Positions 35,298 through 40,623 of a DNA stretch of 40,623 bases are shown in pieces (position 1 is the first letter of the stretch; the number at the start of each line of letters is the position of its first letter). A program made the position numbers and the translations under genes. The DNA is from Alphaproteobacteria bacterium (GTDB lineage: Bacteria > Pseudomonadota > Alphaproteobacteria > Rhodobacterales > Rhodobacteraceae): the NCBI GenBank assembly GCA_030428915.1, contig JAUIDM010000002.1:1-40623 (forward strand), given 5' to 3'. The notes below the pieces were generated by a model. The model made no database searches and was not told the origin of the DNA. It saw nothing but the letters and a program-made list of their open reading frames with translations.

Positions 35298-37763
35298 TCA
35301 GAGCATGATCTCGTGGGACTTGAACGAGATGCCCCGGGTCTGGGCAGTCGCATCCGAGATCTTGCGGATGTCGCCCCAGCAGTGCTTGTAATCCGGCAGC
35401 ACCAACTCGTTCACGCCCGGGTTCACCACATTGCCCTGGCTGCCCGCAGGCGAGCCGAATACCATCGCTACGGTGTTCCGCTTCAGCGTCGGCATCGGAT
35501 AGGCCATGCCCTGCGTCACGCCGTTGTCGTTGATGATCTCGAGCAGATCTCCCGGGTTCAGGCCCAGATCGACCATGTCATCGGGATGCATCTCGACGAA
35601 CGGATGCGGATAGCGGTCCTGAACGAAGTCGTTGTCCTGGTCGAGGAACTGGTTCTGCCAGAAGATGTTGGCACGAACGTTGTTGATCCAGAACCGGTGC
35701 GCGGCCTGTTCGCGGGCCTTGCCCGGGGCCTGCCAGCCTCGCCAGCCCGCCGCACAGAACAGCGCCTTGCCGTCCTCGCGACCATGCCGGGTGAACACGC
35801 CATCGGTGTAAAGGCGCGTTGTACCGACAAGCTGGCCGTTCTCGTAACCAACGACCGGTTCCTGCACACCGTTGTTACCCGCAGCGCGCAGATGCTCGTA
35901 GGTCACTGCCGTATGAGCGGCGCCGTAGCCATCCATGAAGGCGTCTTCCTCGGTTTCCCAATCGTAGCCCTGGAACTGGTCGGCATAGGCATCTTCACCC
36001 ATCTCGCGCAGAACGCGTTCCATGTGCTGGGCGATCCGTGCTGCAATCAGCGCATCGGGCAGGGAGTTGCCGAACGGGTCCATGTACTTCTCGGACAACC
36101 GCAAGCGCCGTTCGCCGTTCATCGAGGTGAGGTTCATCTCGTTGGCTTCGCAGGCGGGCAAAATGACATGGGCATTCTGGCCGATCTGGCTGTGAATGAT
36201 GTCGACGTCCACAACGAAGAGGCCACCGGCGTTGATCGCCGAGACGATGGCATCGACCACCTGCTCGCGTGTGCCGCCAGCGGCCATGTCGATCGCATCC
36301 TTGACCATGTCCGAGCGCCGCTTGTGGACCCGCTTGAACTCGGACGCGTTGAGCGTGGTCTTGTAGTGATCGCAGGCCCAGATGTGATGCACGCCGCCAA
36401 GCCCTCGGATCAGGAACTGGTCCACATATTCTGAGGGTCGGCCGACATGCGCCTCGGACGGACGGAAGTAGCCTTCTTGGTGGCCGCCCAGACGGCAGAC
36501 CCCACCGCCGATCCGGCCCACATTTCCTGTCGCCAGCGCGATATTCACAAGCGCGCCGATGGTGCGGTAGTTGTCGTTGCCCCAGATGATGCCTTTTTCG
36601 TAGCAGGTCACACATTTGCGGCGGCTGCCATCATCATGGGGCTGGGCAATCCACTCGGCAGCCTTCTGAATATCAGCCGCTGATACGCCGCAGATTTCCG
36701 CCGCCTCTTCCAGAGTGGTGCGGCAGGTCTGCATTGCGTATTCGAGGCTGCCGAGGCCCGCCGGGTGGGCGGAATCCTGTGCCACCGCTTCGCCGCCTTG
36801 AAAGGTCGATGCAGCGATGAAGTCGGCATCGACCCAGCCCTGATCCACGATGTGCGTCAGCAGCGCATTGAACAGGACCATGTCCGTGCCTTCAGCAATC
36901 GCGAGATGAAGCACGTTTTCCGGCCCGGCATATTGTTCGGACGAGGCGATGGTCAGCGTGCGGCGCGGATCGACCACGATCATCTTCGCGCCACCCTGAA
37001 GGCCCGGGACCATGTGGTTCAGGTAGAGATTGGTCTGGGTCTCCATCGAGTTCGCGCCGACCATGAAGATCGTGTCGGTCAGCGTGTAGTCCTCGTAGGC
37101 GTAATTCAACTCATCCACGCCCATGTCACGTGAGGAATGGACCTCGGAATTATAGGCTGGGCGGTTGTGGATCCGGCAGTTCTTGATCTTCATGCTCTCG
37201 AAGTAGAGCTTTCCGGTGCCCCAGGTGTTTTCATAGCCTCCGGCGGAACCGCCGTGGTCGAACATCGACACGACGATGTCGTCCTCGGACCCCTCCACGG
37301 CTACTTTCGCCGTCACCCGTGCCACGAGGTCAAGTGCATCGTCCCAAGACGTCGGTTGCCAGACACCGTTGCGCCAGACCAACGGATCAGAGAGACGTTG
37401 CTGCTGTGTGCCGGTCACCCGAGATGGCCGGTTTTCGGCCATGCGTGCTCCGCGGATTGACCCCAGGCCCGAGTTGACGACGCAATTCGCATCAGGCTTG
37501 ACCACCAGATGCACGTCGCGGCCGTTCTGGCGGACTACGTTATACATCGAGGGGGCATACCATGCCTCCGTCTCCATGAACTGCTGTTCGCTGAGGTCGA
37601 CTCCGAACTTGTTCTGGTTCGGGGCCGTGCCGCCCTGACGGTTCATCGGCCAAGTGTAGGCCTTGTAGCCACAACCCACGATGCAGTAGTGGCAGGTCAC
37701 GTTGAATTCGTCAGCATCTGCGGGAATGATCGGCAGCCGGTCGATCTGTCTCTTGTATGCCAT
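35298..37763 (-). CDS. aioA: Arsenite oxidase large (molybdopterin) subunit AioA
   Basis: 821 residues, the usual length. AioA oxidises arsenite to arsenate at a bis-MGD molybdenum centre in the periplasm. The N-terminal VTCHYCIVGCGYKAY holds Cys24, Cys27 and Cys31 for the [3Fe-4S] cluster; at the fourth-ligand region the sequence is CVVNSGLGSIRG, with Ser as is typical of AioA. Further signatures are VSMFDHGGSAGGYENTW, MVGANSMETQTNLYLNHMV and a C-terminal domain with FGSPAGSQGNVV. There is no signal peptide; in this family the large subunit is exported with its Tat-signalled partner AioB, encoded 13 bases upstream. Confidence 0.97.
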   Translation of the reverse strand: MAYKRQIDRLPIIPADADEFNVTCHYCIVGCGYKAYTWPMNRQGGTAPNQNKFGVDLSEQQFMETEAWYAPSMYNVVRQNGRDVHLVVKPDANCVVNSGLGSIRGARMAENRPSRVTGTQQQRLSDPLVWRNGVWQPTSWDDALDLVARVTAKVAVEGSEDDIVVSMFDHGGSAGGYENTWGTGKLYFESMKIKNCRIHNRPAYNSEVHSSRDMGVDELNYAYEDYTLTDTIFMVGANSMETQTNLYLNHMVPGLQGGAKMIVVDPRRTLTIASSEQYAGPENVLHLAIAEGTDMVLFNALLTHIVDQGWVDADFIAASTFQGGEAVAQDSAHPAGLGSLEYAMQTCRTTLEEAAEICGVSAADIQKAAEWIAQPHDDGSRRKCVTCYEKGIIWGNDNYRTIGALVNIALATGNVGRIGGGVCRLGGHQEGYFRPSEAHVGRPSEYVDQFLIRGLGGVHHIWACDHYKTTLNASEFKRVHKRRSDMVKDAIDMAAGGTREQVVDAIVSAINAGGLFVVDVDIIHSQIGQNAHVILPACEANEMNLTSMNGERRLRLSEKYMDPFGNSLPDALIAARIAQHMERVLREMGEDAYADQFQGYDWETEEDAFMDGYGAAHTAVTYEHLRAAGNNGVQEPVVGYENGQLVGTTRLYTDGVFTRHGREDGKALFCAAGWRGWQAPGKAREQAAHRFWINNVRANIFWQNQFLDQDNDFVQDRYPHPFVEMHPDDMVDLGLNPGDLLEIINDNGVTQGMAYPMPTLKRNTVAMVFGSPAGSQGNVVNPGVNELVLPDYKHCWGDIRKISDATAQTRGISFKSHEIML

Positions 37764-37776
37764 TGCTCTTTCTCCC

Positions 37777-38298
37777 TTATGCCAGAACGTTCGACAGGCG
37801 ACCGTAAATCAGCTCGTCCACACCTTCGGCATGGATGTCGCCCTGATCGTCGACCCGCAGCAGGAATTGCGCGAGATTGCTTGTCGCATGGCCCCAGATC
37901 TGCTGGCCTCCGGCCTCGCAATCGAAGCGGGAATGATGGCCGGGGCAATTGAGCGTCATGTCCTCGGCGGAATAGCTCATCAGCCAGCCCTTGTGTGGGC
38001 AGAGCACTGAAAACGCCACGATATCGCCATCCGGGCCGACGCCGCCCTCGACCGCCTGGCCGAGCTTGAGCAGCACACCCGGGCTGTCCGCGTCGGGATA
38101 GGCAATGTCCATCGGTTCGTTCACCACCAGATCGGCAATGTTGGCAAGGCGGTTTGCCGGGTAATCGACGCGGGCCAGTGCCTGCGCCTTGGCCTGTTCC
38201 GGTGTCATCACAGTGGCTGCAACGGCGCCTGCCGTCGCCATCACGCCGCCTCTCAAAAACTGTCGACGTCCTGCGTCGACCAACTTGTTGCACTTCAT
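37777..38298 (-). CDS. aioB: Arsenite oxidase small Rieske subunit AioB
   Basis: 173 residues. Tat signal with RRQFLRGGV and a hydrophobic region ending EQAKAQA. The Rieske [2Fe-2S] domain has Cys100/His102 (LCPHKGW) and Cys118/His121 (NCPGHHS). The extra Cys pair that forms a disulfide in some AioB/Rieske proteins is absent (CPHKGW rather than CxHxGC), the variant known from alphaproteobacterial AioB. GGGAGGA lies nine bases before the ATG. It carries electrons from AioA to a c-type cytochrome. Confidence 0.95.
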   Translation of the reverse strand: MKCNKLVDAGRRQFLRGGVMATAGAVAATVMTPEQAKAQALARVDYPANRLANIADLVVNEPMDIAYPDADSPGVLLKLGQAVEGGVGPDGDIVAFSVLCPHKGWLMSYSAEDMTLNCPGHHSRFDCEAGGQQIWGHATSNLAQFLLRVDDQGDIHAEGVDELIYGRLSNVLA

Positions 38299-38466
38299 TG
38301 GCTAGATTCCTCCCTGGCTCATCAAGTGTCGGATGATTGCCATGAGCCTAACGCTTGCTTTCAGGGCGTGCGATGGCACAGAGAGGCATGCCGCGCTGCG
38401 GCTATCCCATGATTTTAAATTGGAAAATTCGATGTTCGGAAATCCGAACACATGCAACGGGATTTA
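38299..38466 (-). promoter_or_regulatory. aioBA promoter region with candidate AioR operator
   Basis: Intergenic region between aioR and aioB. A perfect inverted repeat TGTTCGGA-AA-TCCGAACA lies at 38433-38450, 135 bases before the aioB ATG: GTTCG-N6-CGAAC, a form I recall being proposed for AioR sites in Rhizobiales. A convincing sigma54 -24/-12 element is not seen; the best minus-strand fit (TGG and GC at the right spacing, about 38395-38410) matches only part of the consensus. AT-rich sequence flanks the repeat. Confidence 0.6.
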
Positions 38467-39714
38467 TCAGGATCCTGACAGCCCAAGTTTCTGCATTTTC
38501 TCCCAAAGTGTTGTGCGGGCAATCCGCAAGAGCTTTGCCGCCTCGCCGATCTGGCCATCGGTCCGGTCGAGGGCAGCAATGATCTGTGCCTTCTCCGCGG
38601 CTTCACGGGCCTGGGCCAAGGACATCATGTCGTCCGGTCCTGCAAGACGTTCGGGGAAGAGATCTGAAGGCTGCAAGAGCGGCCCTGTCGCCATGGCCAG
38701 CCCGCGCAGCAATCTTGCTCGAAGATCCCGGCCGCCACCCGGCCAGTCATGTGTGCGCACGGCCTCTTCGCAAAGCGCGCCGATGCCGACCAACCCCGGT
38801 GCATGGCGAGGAGCCAGCTTACGAAAAAGCTGCTGAAGCAGCCAGACGGCATCTTCGGGTCGTGTGCCGAGCGGCGGTATTGGGATTTCGATCCGTGCTA
38901 ACCTGTAGAAAAGTTCAGAATTGAAAGCACCTTGCCCAATCAGCGCCTCGAGATCGTTTCCACAGGCTGCGATGAGTCTGCCGTCGAAGTCTTTATCCAG
39001 CCGCTCCAACAGGTGCGCCTGGACCTGTGCGGTCATCTTGCTGATAGAGTTGATGAACAAGGTTCCTTCACCCACGGTATCAACTCCACCGCCGGGGCGG
39101 AACAAGGCCGCCTCCGCGTCGGCTTCGCGCGCGAGATTGACCAAAACGAATGGGGCAGCGGACCGGTCTGACAGGTCATGGATACGTCGCGCCACAAGGT
39201 CCTTGCCAGTTCCCGGCCCGCCCCGGATCAGCACGGGATCGCTTGCCTTTGCAGCCTTGACGATCAGCGCTTCAACCCGGCGCGCCGCGACTGAGACCCC
39301 CATCAAGGGCGGAAAGTCATCATCCTGAAACGGCTTCTCGCGGTTTCCGACGAGCAGGCTGAGGCGATCGAGGAAGACAGACATTTCGAACGGTTTGGTC
39401 ACGTAGTCCGCGGCACCCGATTTGATCAGCCGGACCGCCTGACCGATCCCACCTTGCCCGGTGATGAACAGGAAAGGCGGGGGTGTCCCGGTGCGCAGAA
39501 GCGTTGAAAACAGCTCTTCCCCCGACCCGTCCGGCAGGCCGATATCACAGATTACTGCGTCGATTGGCTTCTTGGGGGTGCGGATTGCGCCGAGCGCCCG
39601 CACCATCTGCTTCAGCCAGAGAACCTTCGCCCCTTCCAGTTCCAACCGCTGCAGCAGCGACCCGCCCATGATCTCGTCGTCCTCGACAAGAACGATGTAT
39701 CTATCCTTTAGCAT
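38467..39714 (-). CDS. aioR: Response regulator AioR, NtrC-like with degenerate AAA+ domain
   Basis: 415 residues. Receiver domain with acidic pocket EDD (11-13), phospho-acceptor Asp57 (ICDIGLPDGSG), Thr85 and Lys107. AAA+ domain: Walker A GGPGTGKD (165-172) is near normal, but the sigma54-contacting GAFTGA loop is missing. After LF (204-205) only about 11 residues precede GTLF, roughly 12 fewer than in NtrC, and Walker B reads GTLFINSI instead of GTLFLDEI. C-terminal Fis-type HTH (IIAALDRTDGQIGEAAKLLRIARTTLWEK) is intact. By position it is the partner of AioS and regulator of aioBA. Activation of sigma54 polymerase by ATP hydrolysis looks unlikely. Overlaps aioS by 14 bases. Confidence 0.88.
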   Translation of the reverse strand: MLKDRYIVLVEDDEIMGGSLLQRLELEGAKVLWLKQMVRALGAIRTPKKPIDAVICDIGLPDGSGEELFSTLLRTGTPPPFLFITGQGGIGQAVRLIKSGAADYVTKPFEMSVFLDRLSLLVGNREKPFQDDDFPPLMGVSVAARRVEALIVKAAKASDPVLIRGGPGTGKDLVARRIHDLSDRSAAPFVLVNLAREADAEAALFRPGGGVDTVGEGTLFINSISKMTAQVQAHLLERLDKDFDGRLIAACGNDLEALIGQGAFNSELFYRLARIEIPIPPLGTRPEDAVWLLQQLFRKLAPRHAPGLVGIGALCEEAVRTHDWPGGGRDLRARLLRGLAMATGPLLQPSDLFPERLAGPDDMMSLAQAREAAEKAQIIAALDRTDGQIGEAAKLLRIARTTLWEKMQKLGLSGS

Positions 39715-40623
39715 CGCGCGCCTCCCATGACGCAGGCAGGGTGACAGTCACGCGCGTTACGCCATTTTCTTGCGCATGGCAGACAGCGCCACCCATTGTT
39801 TTCGCGAGGTCGCGGACCAGCCGCAGCCCGACGCCGCCACCGGGCAAGAGCGGACCATCCCCGAGCAAGCGATCCAACGCGGCCTGCGGCATGGACGCGC
39901 CCGTGTTCGTGATCTGAAGGCTGAGGTTGCCGTCCGTTGTACGGGCCATCAGGCCAACGCAGCCGTTTTGGCCTGCCGCCGAGCAGGCGTTCAGCAGCAG
40001 GTTGAGCGCAATCTGCCGCACAGGCCCGGCGGTCAGGCTGCACCCTGTGACTGCTGCCGGATCGACAGACCACCCCAGATCCAATGCCAGTCGCGAGACC
40101 TCGGATTGGATCAACAGCTTGATGTCCTCGAAGTCATCGGATGTCAGCGCGCGGGTCTCGGGGTCCATGCGGTTCTGGTCAAGGGTTGCTCGGGTCACAT
40201 CACGCAAATGGCGCAGGCCCCTGTCGAGCAGATCTGCCGACTGACGCACCACCTCGGGACGATCAGGATAGCTGCGTATCGTATCTGTCGCGTTCAGTAG
40301 CCCGCCGAGTGGGTTGTTGATCTCATGCGCCAGTGACGAGGACAGACGGCCAAGGGCAACGAACCGTTCCCGTTCCGCCAACCGCCGCTCGGCTTCGGCC
40401 TTGGCGGCTACGGCGCCGACCATCGAGTTGTAGGTACGTGCCAGCCGTGCCAGTTCGCCATCGCCGCGCGGGATGTCCGCGGCCGGGATAGGATGCGGCT
40501 CTCCCTTCGTCTCGGTCATCTGGCGTGCCAGCGTCGTGACCGGCTTCAGCATCCTTCGTATCGCCAAAAACCCCGCCATCGACAGAAAGCCGATGGCAAC
40601 CGCATTGCCCATGATCAAATAGA
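39701..40623 (-). CDS. aioS: Sensor histidine kinase AioS, C-terminal part (5' end outside window)
   Basis: The frame stays open to the window edge; about 305 residues are seen. A membrane helix (VAIGFLSMAGFLAI) leads into a HAMP linker, a coiled coil (KAEAERRLAERERF) and the dimerisation domain with the phospho-accepting His in SSLAHEINNPLGG. The ATPase domain has an N box NLLLNACSAA and G box PGGGVGLRLVRDLAKTMGG. The sensor region, and the arsenite-binding protein AioX usually encoded next to aioS, would be beyond the edge. Identified by its position beside aioR and aioBA. Confidence 0.88.
   Translation of the reverse strand, partial: YLIMGNAVAIGFLSMAGFLAIRRMLKPVTTLARQMTETKGEPHPIPAADIPRGDGELARLARTYNSMVGAVAAKAEAERRLAERERFVALGRLSSSLAHEINNPLGGLLNATDTIRSYPDRPEVVRQSADLLDRGLRHLRDVTRATLDQNRMDPETRALTSDDFEDIKLLIQSEVSRLALDLGWSVDPAAVTGCSLTAGPVRQIALNLLLNACSAAGQNGCVGLMARTTDGNLSLQITNTGASMPQAALDRLLGDGPLLPGGGVGLRLVRDLAKTMGGAVCHAQENGVTRVTVTLPASWEARDAKG

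Follow-up and report, generated by a model that had tools for sequence, protein, structure and literature searches.

Loss of the sigma54-facing loops of AioR and a predicted sigma70-type promoter for arsenite oxidase in a mainly Rhodobacterales clade

Introduction

How is arsenite oxidase controlled when its regulator, AioR, has lost the loops that face sigma54 in the NtrC family? The question is raised by the gene at 38467-39714 of the window, by which we mean the whole stretch of 40,623 nucleotides analysed here, from a Rhodobacteraceae genome (G000). In the known AioXSR systems of Rhizobium NT-26, Agrobacterium and Sinorhizobium M14, the promoter is of the -24/-12 type, and its need for RpoN has been demonstrated or inferred (PMC6011840, PMC3834237, PMC7533571). 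An earlier survey found two palindromes together with a -24/-12 element at every aioXSR locus it examined (PMC3834237). The original prediction for the gene in the window was that it encodes an AioR without the GAFTGA loop and without the Walker B acids, which no longer works through sigma54 and instead acts like the NtrC and HupR proteins of Rhodobacter at a sigma70 promoter.

Results

The gene is aioR by context and by tree. In the window a sensor kinase gene lies directly before it and aioB and aioA follow (Table 1). Relatives have the full order aioX-aioS-aioR-aioB-aioA, for example on a complete Paracoccus seriniphilus plasmid, and this order together with the neighbouring aioS and aioB identifies the gene by context. 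In our tree, with two regulators as outgroup (L053 and L056), its product groups with the AioR proteins of NT-26 and pSinA (SH-aLRT 100). It is an orthologue of the AioR of NT-26, Agrobacterium 5A/GW4 and Sinorhizobium M14, with which it shares gene order, similarity of the receiver and HTH domains, about 40% identity and the same palindrome.

Table 1. Features of the aio locus in the window, with the evidence for each
Feature	Position	Strand	Evidence
aioA: arsenite oxidase large subunit, target	35298..37763	minus	TIGR02693
aioB: arsenite oxidase small subunit, target	37777..38298	minus	TIGR02694
Predicted sigma70-type -10 of aioB, TAGGCT	38345..38350	minus	EM motif in 60/60 loci, fixed operator distance
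GCCGCANTGCGGC-like inverted repeat (TTGCCGC/GCCGCANTGCGGC)	38389..38404	minus	EM motif, function unassigned
A/T-rich tract between operator and promoter	38402..38431		57-78% AT at +11 to +40 in loop-less loci
Predicted AioR operator, palindrome GTGTTCGGATTTCCGAACAT (minus strand)	38432..38451		Conserved in both AioR types
aioR: response regulator, 415 aa	38467..39714	minus	Pfam Response_reg, Sigma54_activ_2, HTH_8; clade-wide alignment; tree
Fis-type HTH, recognition helix RTTLWEKM	38485..38607	minus	Pfam PF02954; conserved between both AioR types
Site of deleted L2 / pre-sensor-I insert	38980..39012	minus	Alignment; segment length
Degenerate Walker B, GTLFINSI, DE -> NS	39043..39066	minus	D and E in 0/65
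Site of deleted L1/GAFTGA loop	39067..39105	minus	Alignment with NT-26 AioR; segment length
Walker A, GGPGTGKD	39199..39222	minus	Lys in 65/65 of clade
Receiver domain (residues 7-117) with intact phosphorylation-site residues	39364..39696	minus	Pfam PF00072; D, D, D, T, K invariant in 65/65
aioS: sensor histidine kinase, cut by window end	39701..40621	minus	HAMP, HisKA, HATPase_c; gene order in relatives

Aligned with the AioR proteins of NT-26 and pSinA, the window AioR has a shortened LFGHEKGAFTGA-bearing segment with no GAFTGA, and its Walker B motif has changed from GILFLDEI to GTLFINSI with Walker A kept. The AioR losses are present in all 65 relatives of one fully supported, mainly Rhodobacterales clade, here called the loop-less clade; the AioR proteins of NT-26 and other Hyphomicrobiales retain the loops and the DE pair. 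The L1 segment has 9-17 residues in the loop-less clade and 25 in GAFTGA-type AioR. A second loss, absent from the original prediction, is that of the L2/pre-sensor-I insert (11-13 residues versus 24), which is the second sigma54-facing loop in the NtrC family (PMC7175178). Neither Walker B acid is found in any of the 65 clade members, the Walker A lysine and the Asp, Thr and Lys residues of the receiver are found in every one, and the sensor II arginine is kept in 64. The predicted absence of the GAFTGA loop, replacement of the Walker B acids and integrity of the receiver and the conserved Fis-type HTH thus hold for the window protein and throughout its clade.

A sequencing or assembly error, which would have undone the prediction, can be ruled out as the cause of these losses. 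The loop-less state recurs in a second assembly (G223), whose protein is 100% identical, in proteins with 90% and 77% identity and on the complete Paracoccus seriniphilus plasmid, so that independent assemblies and complete plasmids agree.

The domains of the loop-less proteins differ in conservation. Mean pairwise identity is lowest in the AAA+ domain (0.49, versus 0.69 in both the receiver and the HTH), whereas in GAFTGA-type AioR the AAA+ domain (0.63) is more conserved than the receiver (0.56). This pattern is what would be expected if the motor function had been released and signal input and DNA binding had been kept under selection. Individual domains are modelled with confidence by AlphaFold in the full-length protein (pLDDT 89.6). 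This confidence does not extend to the domain arrangement (pTM 0.57), and we therefore make no claim based on the assembly of the model.

In the tree, which has 88 rows, the main loop-less clade (SH-aLRT 100) sits on a long branch (0.85) and is nested among GAFTGA-type AioR. This nesting means that the loop was lost separately from the loss in NtrC. Common descent of the loss with Rhodobacter capsulatus NtrC and HupR is not met in this tree, in which these two proteins themselves were not placed. Two unrelated AioR proteins outside the main clade (L120 and L130) have lost GAFTGA separately.

The putative operator is common to both types of AioR. The palindrome ATGTTCGGAAATCCGAACAT is found upstream of aioB with either type and corresponds to palindromes described before upstream of aioBA (PMC3834237); its role as operator is inferred from conservation, without binding data. 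The window site matches it at 19 of 20 positions, and nowhere else in the genome is there a match with one mismatch or fewer. At 19 of the 23 GAFTGA-type loci the palindrome occurs twice, in most cases with the copies spaced by about 33 bp, and 61 of the 66 loop-less loci have a single one. The AioR systems of NT-26, Agrobacterium and M14 keep GAFTGA, L2 and DE in the protein, with two operators and a -24/-12 promoter at the target, all of which are gone or reduced in the window.

A clear division is seen in the -24/-12 element. Every GAFTGA-type locus (23/23) matches TGGCACG-N4-TTGCW at 10 or more of 12 positions, 50-67 bp before aioB, and the match in NT-26 is the published RpoN promoter (PMC6011840). 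Only 3 of the 66 loop-less loci reach at least 9/12, and none of these reaches 10 or more at the expected position. Upstream of aioB in the window the best match is 7/12, at the ribosome-binding site (p=0.33). The lack of a clear -24/-12 promoter before aioB had been part of the original prediction; it is borne out, and no loop-less locus has one there. Counted in tree rows, the element is present in 22/22 GAFTGA-type and 0/63 loop-less cases, and the split has the same direction in 3/3 independent pairs, although three are too few for a formal test. Since the main loop-less clade represents one origin, the association of promoter and regulator rests on few independent events (3). One Rhodobacteraceae genome with a GAFTGA-type AioR (G008) has kept the -24/-12 element, two palindromes and rpoN. 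As the old promoter is kept with the old AioR, the promoter difference follows the regulator and not the family. The separate losses in L120 and L130 are accompanied by no good -24/-12 before aioB; in L120 a degraded one (TGGACTCGGCCTAGCT) overlaps TAnnnT at +85.

An unguided EM motif search returned a different element, gcTAnncT, in 60/60 loop-less loci, with a score of 122 compared to 18-25 for shuffled sequences. Its TA lies 89-93 bp from the operator centre in these 60 loci, and TAnnnT is found at +89 to +93 in 63/63 loop-less loci. Five loci left out of motif finding (L037, L091, L102, L103 and L116) agree, with the element at +89 to +92. Comparable 5-nt windows elsewhere in the spacer contain it in 5 of 630 cases (0.8%), and none of the 23 GAFTGA-type loci has it at +89 to +93. 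The distance from the operator centre is 90.8 +/- 0.9 bp over the 63 loci. The distance from the element to the aioB start codon is far more variable (s.d. 5.3 bp). Identity across the spacer that separates operator and element is 0.60, little above the 0.55 of shuffled sequence. A count of independent pairs for TAnnnT against GAFTGA gives no support, because L120 and L130 have no such -10 at the spacing of the main clade.

We read TAnnnT as a sigma70-type -10, a reading in which the start site and the sigma factor are inferred. The consensus is short, and other factors of the sigma70 family could read it. Upstream of TAnnnT no -35 consensus is visible in the loop-less loci, as expected for an activator-dependent promoter. 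If transcription began some 12 bp downstream of the initial T of the -10, the aioB start in the window would be near 38338 and the operator centre near -103.

This predicted geometry bears on whether AioR may be a repressor of the sigma70 promoter that is relieved by arsenite. Loop-less family members can repress, and Caulobacter NtrC does so at some sigma70 promoters (PMC10274813), but an operator centred at about -103 relative to the predicted start has no overlap with the core promoter, and a core with a -10 and no -35 consensus suits a promoter that requires an activator. We consider repression quite unlikely.

The constant spacing is also difficult to reconcile with AioR being a decayed, non-functional remnant, with aioBA constitutive or under another regulator and transcribed from a sigma70 promoter. 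Decay would agree with the fast divergence of the AAA+ domain, with frameshifts in some clade members (Jhaorihella thermophila, G110, and G201) and with an IS element between operator and aioB in one strain. However, it would not hold the operator-to--10 spacing to about 1 bp in 63/63 loci whose spacers have diverged, and the receiver residues and P-loop lysine are intact in 65/65 proteins, the HTH is conserved and the operator is present in nearly every locus. Decay of AioR is therefore very unlikely.

Some individual loci deserve mention in their own right. The aioR gene is split between frames in Jhaorihella thermophila (L040/L043) and in G201 (L037), and the aioB operator and the -10 remain. 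On the plasmid of Pseudosulfitobacter pseudonitzschiae H46 (L047:9469-10556) an IS3-family element lies between aioR with the operator on one side and aioB on the other. It parts the operator from aioBA, whose expression may be uncoupled.

Two further features were found between operator and promoter. The region at +11 to +40 from the operator is 57-78% AT in loop-less loci compared to 32-51% in GAFTGA-type loci, and could be a region of contact for the alpha-CTD, although such contact is inferred only. In 33-34 of 60 loop-less loci the TTGCCGC/GCCGCANTGCGGC inverted repeat stands at precisely +37 relative to the centre of the operator. It is absent in other sub-branches and is perhaps the site of a second regulator. 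We considered TTGCCGC at +37 as a -35 and rejected it: there is no -10-like element 16-18 bp on, the TAnnnT being some 50 bp beyond. By eye, a possible RegA/PrrA-type site (GCGGC...GTCGC) can also be seen.

No sigma54 gene was detected in 16 of 41 distinct loop-less genomes when searching for the sigma54 DNA-binding domain above the cut-off, and the same 16 have no match to the sigma54 core-binding domain either. Sigma54 is present in 14/14 GAFTGA-type genomes (Fisher p 0.005, not corrected for relatedness). The 16 include seven genomes that are at least 97% complete, one that is a single contig, and the named isolate Roseovarius sp. 217. The aio loci checked in these genomes have the same layout, and it is unlikely that AioR depends on sigma54 in hosts without a detectable one. 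The window genome itself carries rpoN, so sigma54 loss cannot be assumed for this organism and is ruled out as the cause there, even though many relatives show no rpoN. The argument for the window organism rests instead on its clade membership, its own protein and its own promoter.

As rpoN is present in the window genome and in roughly 60% of the genomes with a loop-less AioR, there is room for the suggestion that AioR still uses sigma54, by other contacts and at a -24/-12 element that escaped detection, and weak GG-N10-GC matches do occur in a few loci, such as L064 and L121. Against this, the proteins lack L1, L2 and an intact Walker B, no locus of the clade has a good -24/-12 at the expected position, and the same AioR and promoter layout occurs in the 16 genomes without detected sigma54. 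We find continued use of sigma54 hardly credible.

The hosts of the loop-less clade are marine and freshwater bacteria. Outside the Rhodobacterales, Roseibium aquae (L063), Stappia sp. (L067) and Aurantimonas marina (L129) are Hyphomicrobiales that have rpoN, a loop-less AioR and the sigma70-type promoter; related Roseibium and Labrenzia have GAFTGA-type AioR. The module thus appears to have moved horizontally, and a transfer of loop-less AioR and promoter as a whole into Hyphomicrobiales is likely. A contig labelled Verrucomicrobiaceae (L137) has a Rhodobacterales-type aio locus and is probably misbinned.

Discussion

A sigma54-dependent enhancer-binding protein would be expected to have GAFTGA, the Walker B Asp-Glu pair and a -24/-12 element at its target. 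The window AioR meets none of these three defining features, and for this reason we do not file it as a sigma54-dependent activator. It does have the features of a loop-less sigma70 activator, namely a lost GAFTGA, an intact receiver and HTH and a retained P-loop. With both loops, the Walker B acids and the -24/-12 gone, with a predicted sigma70-type -10 at 91 +/- 1 bp from the operator, and with many hosts lacking a detectable rpoN, the proposal that AioR no longer works through sigma54 is supported. We regard it as highly probable that AioR is here an arsenite-responsive activator that has moved from sigma54 to a sigma70-type promoter, its sigma70 dependence and activating role being inferred from sequence. 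As part of the same explanation and with the same confidence, the switch would have happened once, at the base of the mainly Rhodobacterales clade, with regulator and promoter changing together.

In the mechanism that we propose, arsenite would be sensed by AioX and AioR phosphorylated by AioS, an inference from the order of the genes, the intact receiver domain and what is known of AioXSR. AioR would then bind one palindrome, TGTTCGGA-TT-TCCGAACA, upstream of aioB, and activate or recruit a sigma70-family polymerase at the TAnnnT -10 without a recognisable -35. Binding is inferred from the conserved site, and so is the contact with polymerase. Given an operator centred at about -103 from the predicted start and on a fixed helix face, this contact would probably be made with the alpha subunit over the A/T-rich tract. 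The AAA+ domain probably still binds nucleotide, given its invariant P-loop lysine, and helps oligomerisation; having lost Walker B, L1 and L2, it is presumed not to hydrolyse ATP and to be unable to remodel sigma54. Activation of sigma70 polymerase by phosphorylated AioR without ATP hydrolysis is thus our best explanation in the absence of transcription data. The start site, the sigma factor, activation as opposed to repression, and the roles of ATP and phosphorylation are all predictions drawn from sequence comparison.

The mode of action of loop-less NtrC-type proteins is already known, with Rhodobacter capsulatus NtrC and HupR as precedents. R. capsulatus NtrC, as cited in PMC10274813, lacks the GAFTGA loop and is reported to activate sigma70 polymerase with a need for ATP binding but not hydrolysis. 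Its stimulus, targets and clade differ from those of AioR. HupR of R. capsulatus has no functional GAFTGA and is listed as sigma70-dependent (PMC3162934). Like AioR it is a receiver-type member of the NtrC family, compared here without a sequence alignment. It controls hydrogenase and differs from AioR in its binding site and in the phosphorylation state that is active. By analogy we place these two proteins closest to AioR in mode of action, though not in the same lineage. The predicted likeness to them agrees with the TAnnnT at fixed spacing, which is read as a -10 from sequence alone and has no -35, but it is not exact: the NtrC of the window genome (L008) has lost GAFTGA and keeps the Walker B DE, while in the AioR clade neither acid is left. 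Caulobacter NtrC, which also lacks the GAFTGA loop, has a smaller and different deletion; it acts at sigma70 promoters and requires both Walker A and Walker B (PMC10274813). VpsR of Vibrio cholerae, a GAFTGA-deficient family member (PMC3162934), is among the nearest solved folds to the AlphaFold model of AioR but, unlike AioR, binds c-di-GMP and lies outside any arsenite-sensing operon.

Within the window genome, most of the other NtrC-family proteins, namely L003, L004, L005, L008, L011 and L013 (NtrC, NtrX and a PgtA-like protein among them), are also without GAFTGA, and the motif is full or nearly so only in L001 and L002. Rhodobacterales may be leaving sigma54 more generally. On plasmid pORIO3 of Cereibacter azotoformans a loop-less AioR-type regulator stands before an arx-type operon (4Fe-4S/molybdopterin/NrfD; L057:6001-7440). 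This locus, which was outside the motif-finding set, has two palindromes 33 bp apart and a -10 at +90 from the nearer one, and it seems that the same switch controls the alternative arsenite oxidase (arx) in this species.

In the literature that we searched we found no paper covering both AioR and GAFTGA. The loop-less AioR clade, without L1, L2 and the two Walker B acids, appears to be undescribed there, and so, above all, does the parallel replacement of the promoter next to an operator that stayed conserved. We think it probable, with somewhat less confidence than for the sigma factor switch itself, that activator and promoter changed sigma factor as a unit. The operator and the input domains would have been kept, a sigma70 -10 would have taken the place of the sigma54 promoter at a constant helical distance, and the AAA+ motor would have become a non-hydrolysing scaffold. 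This would have let arsenite oxidation persist in, and spread to, lineages without sigma54, and would include the transfer of the module into Hyphomicrobiales hosts.

Reviews treat AioR as a sigma54 activator, and a large and widespread group of arsenite oxidisers departs from this rule. The regulatory models from Agrobacterium, NT-26 and Herminiimonas should consequently not be carried over to this group. With both states found around the same operator in many species, AioR also offers a clean natural case for studying the passage of a transcription factor from sigma54 to sigma70, and the role left to an AAA+ motor once ATP hydrolysis has ended.
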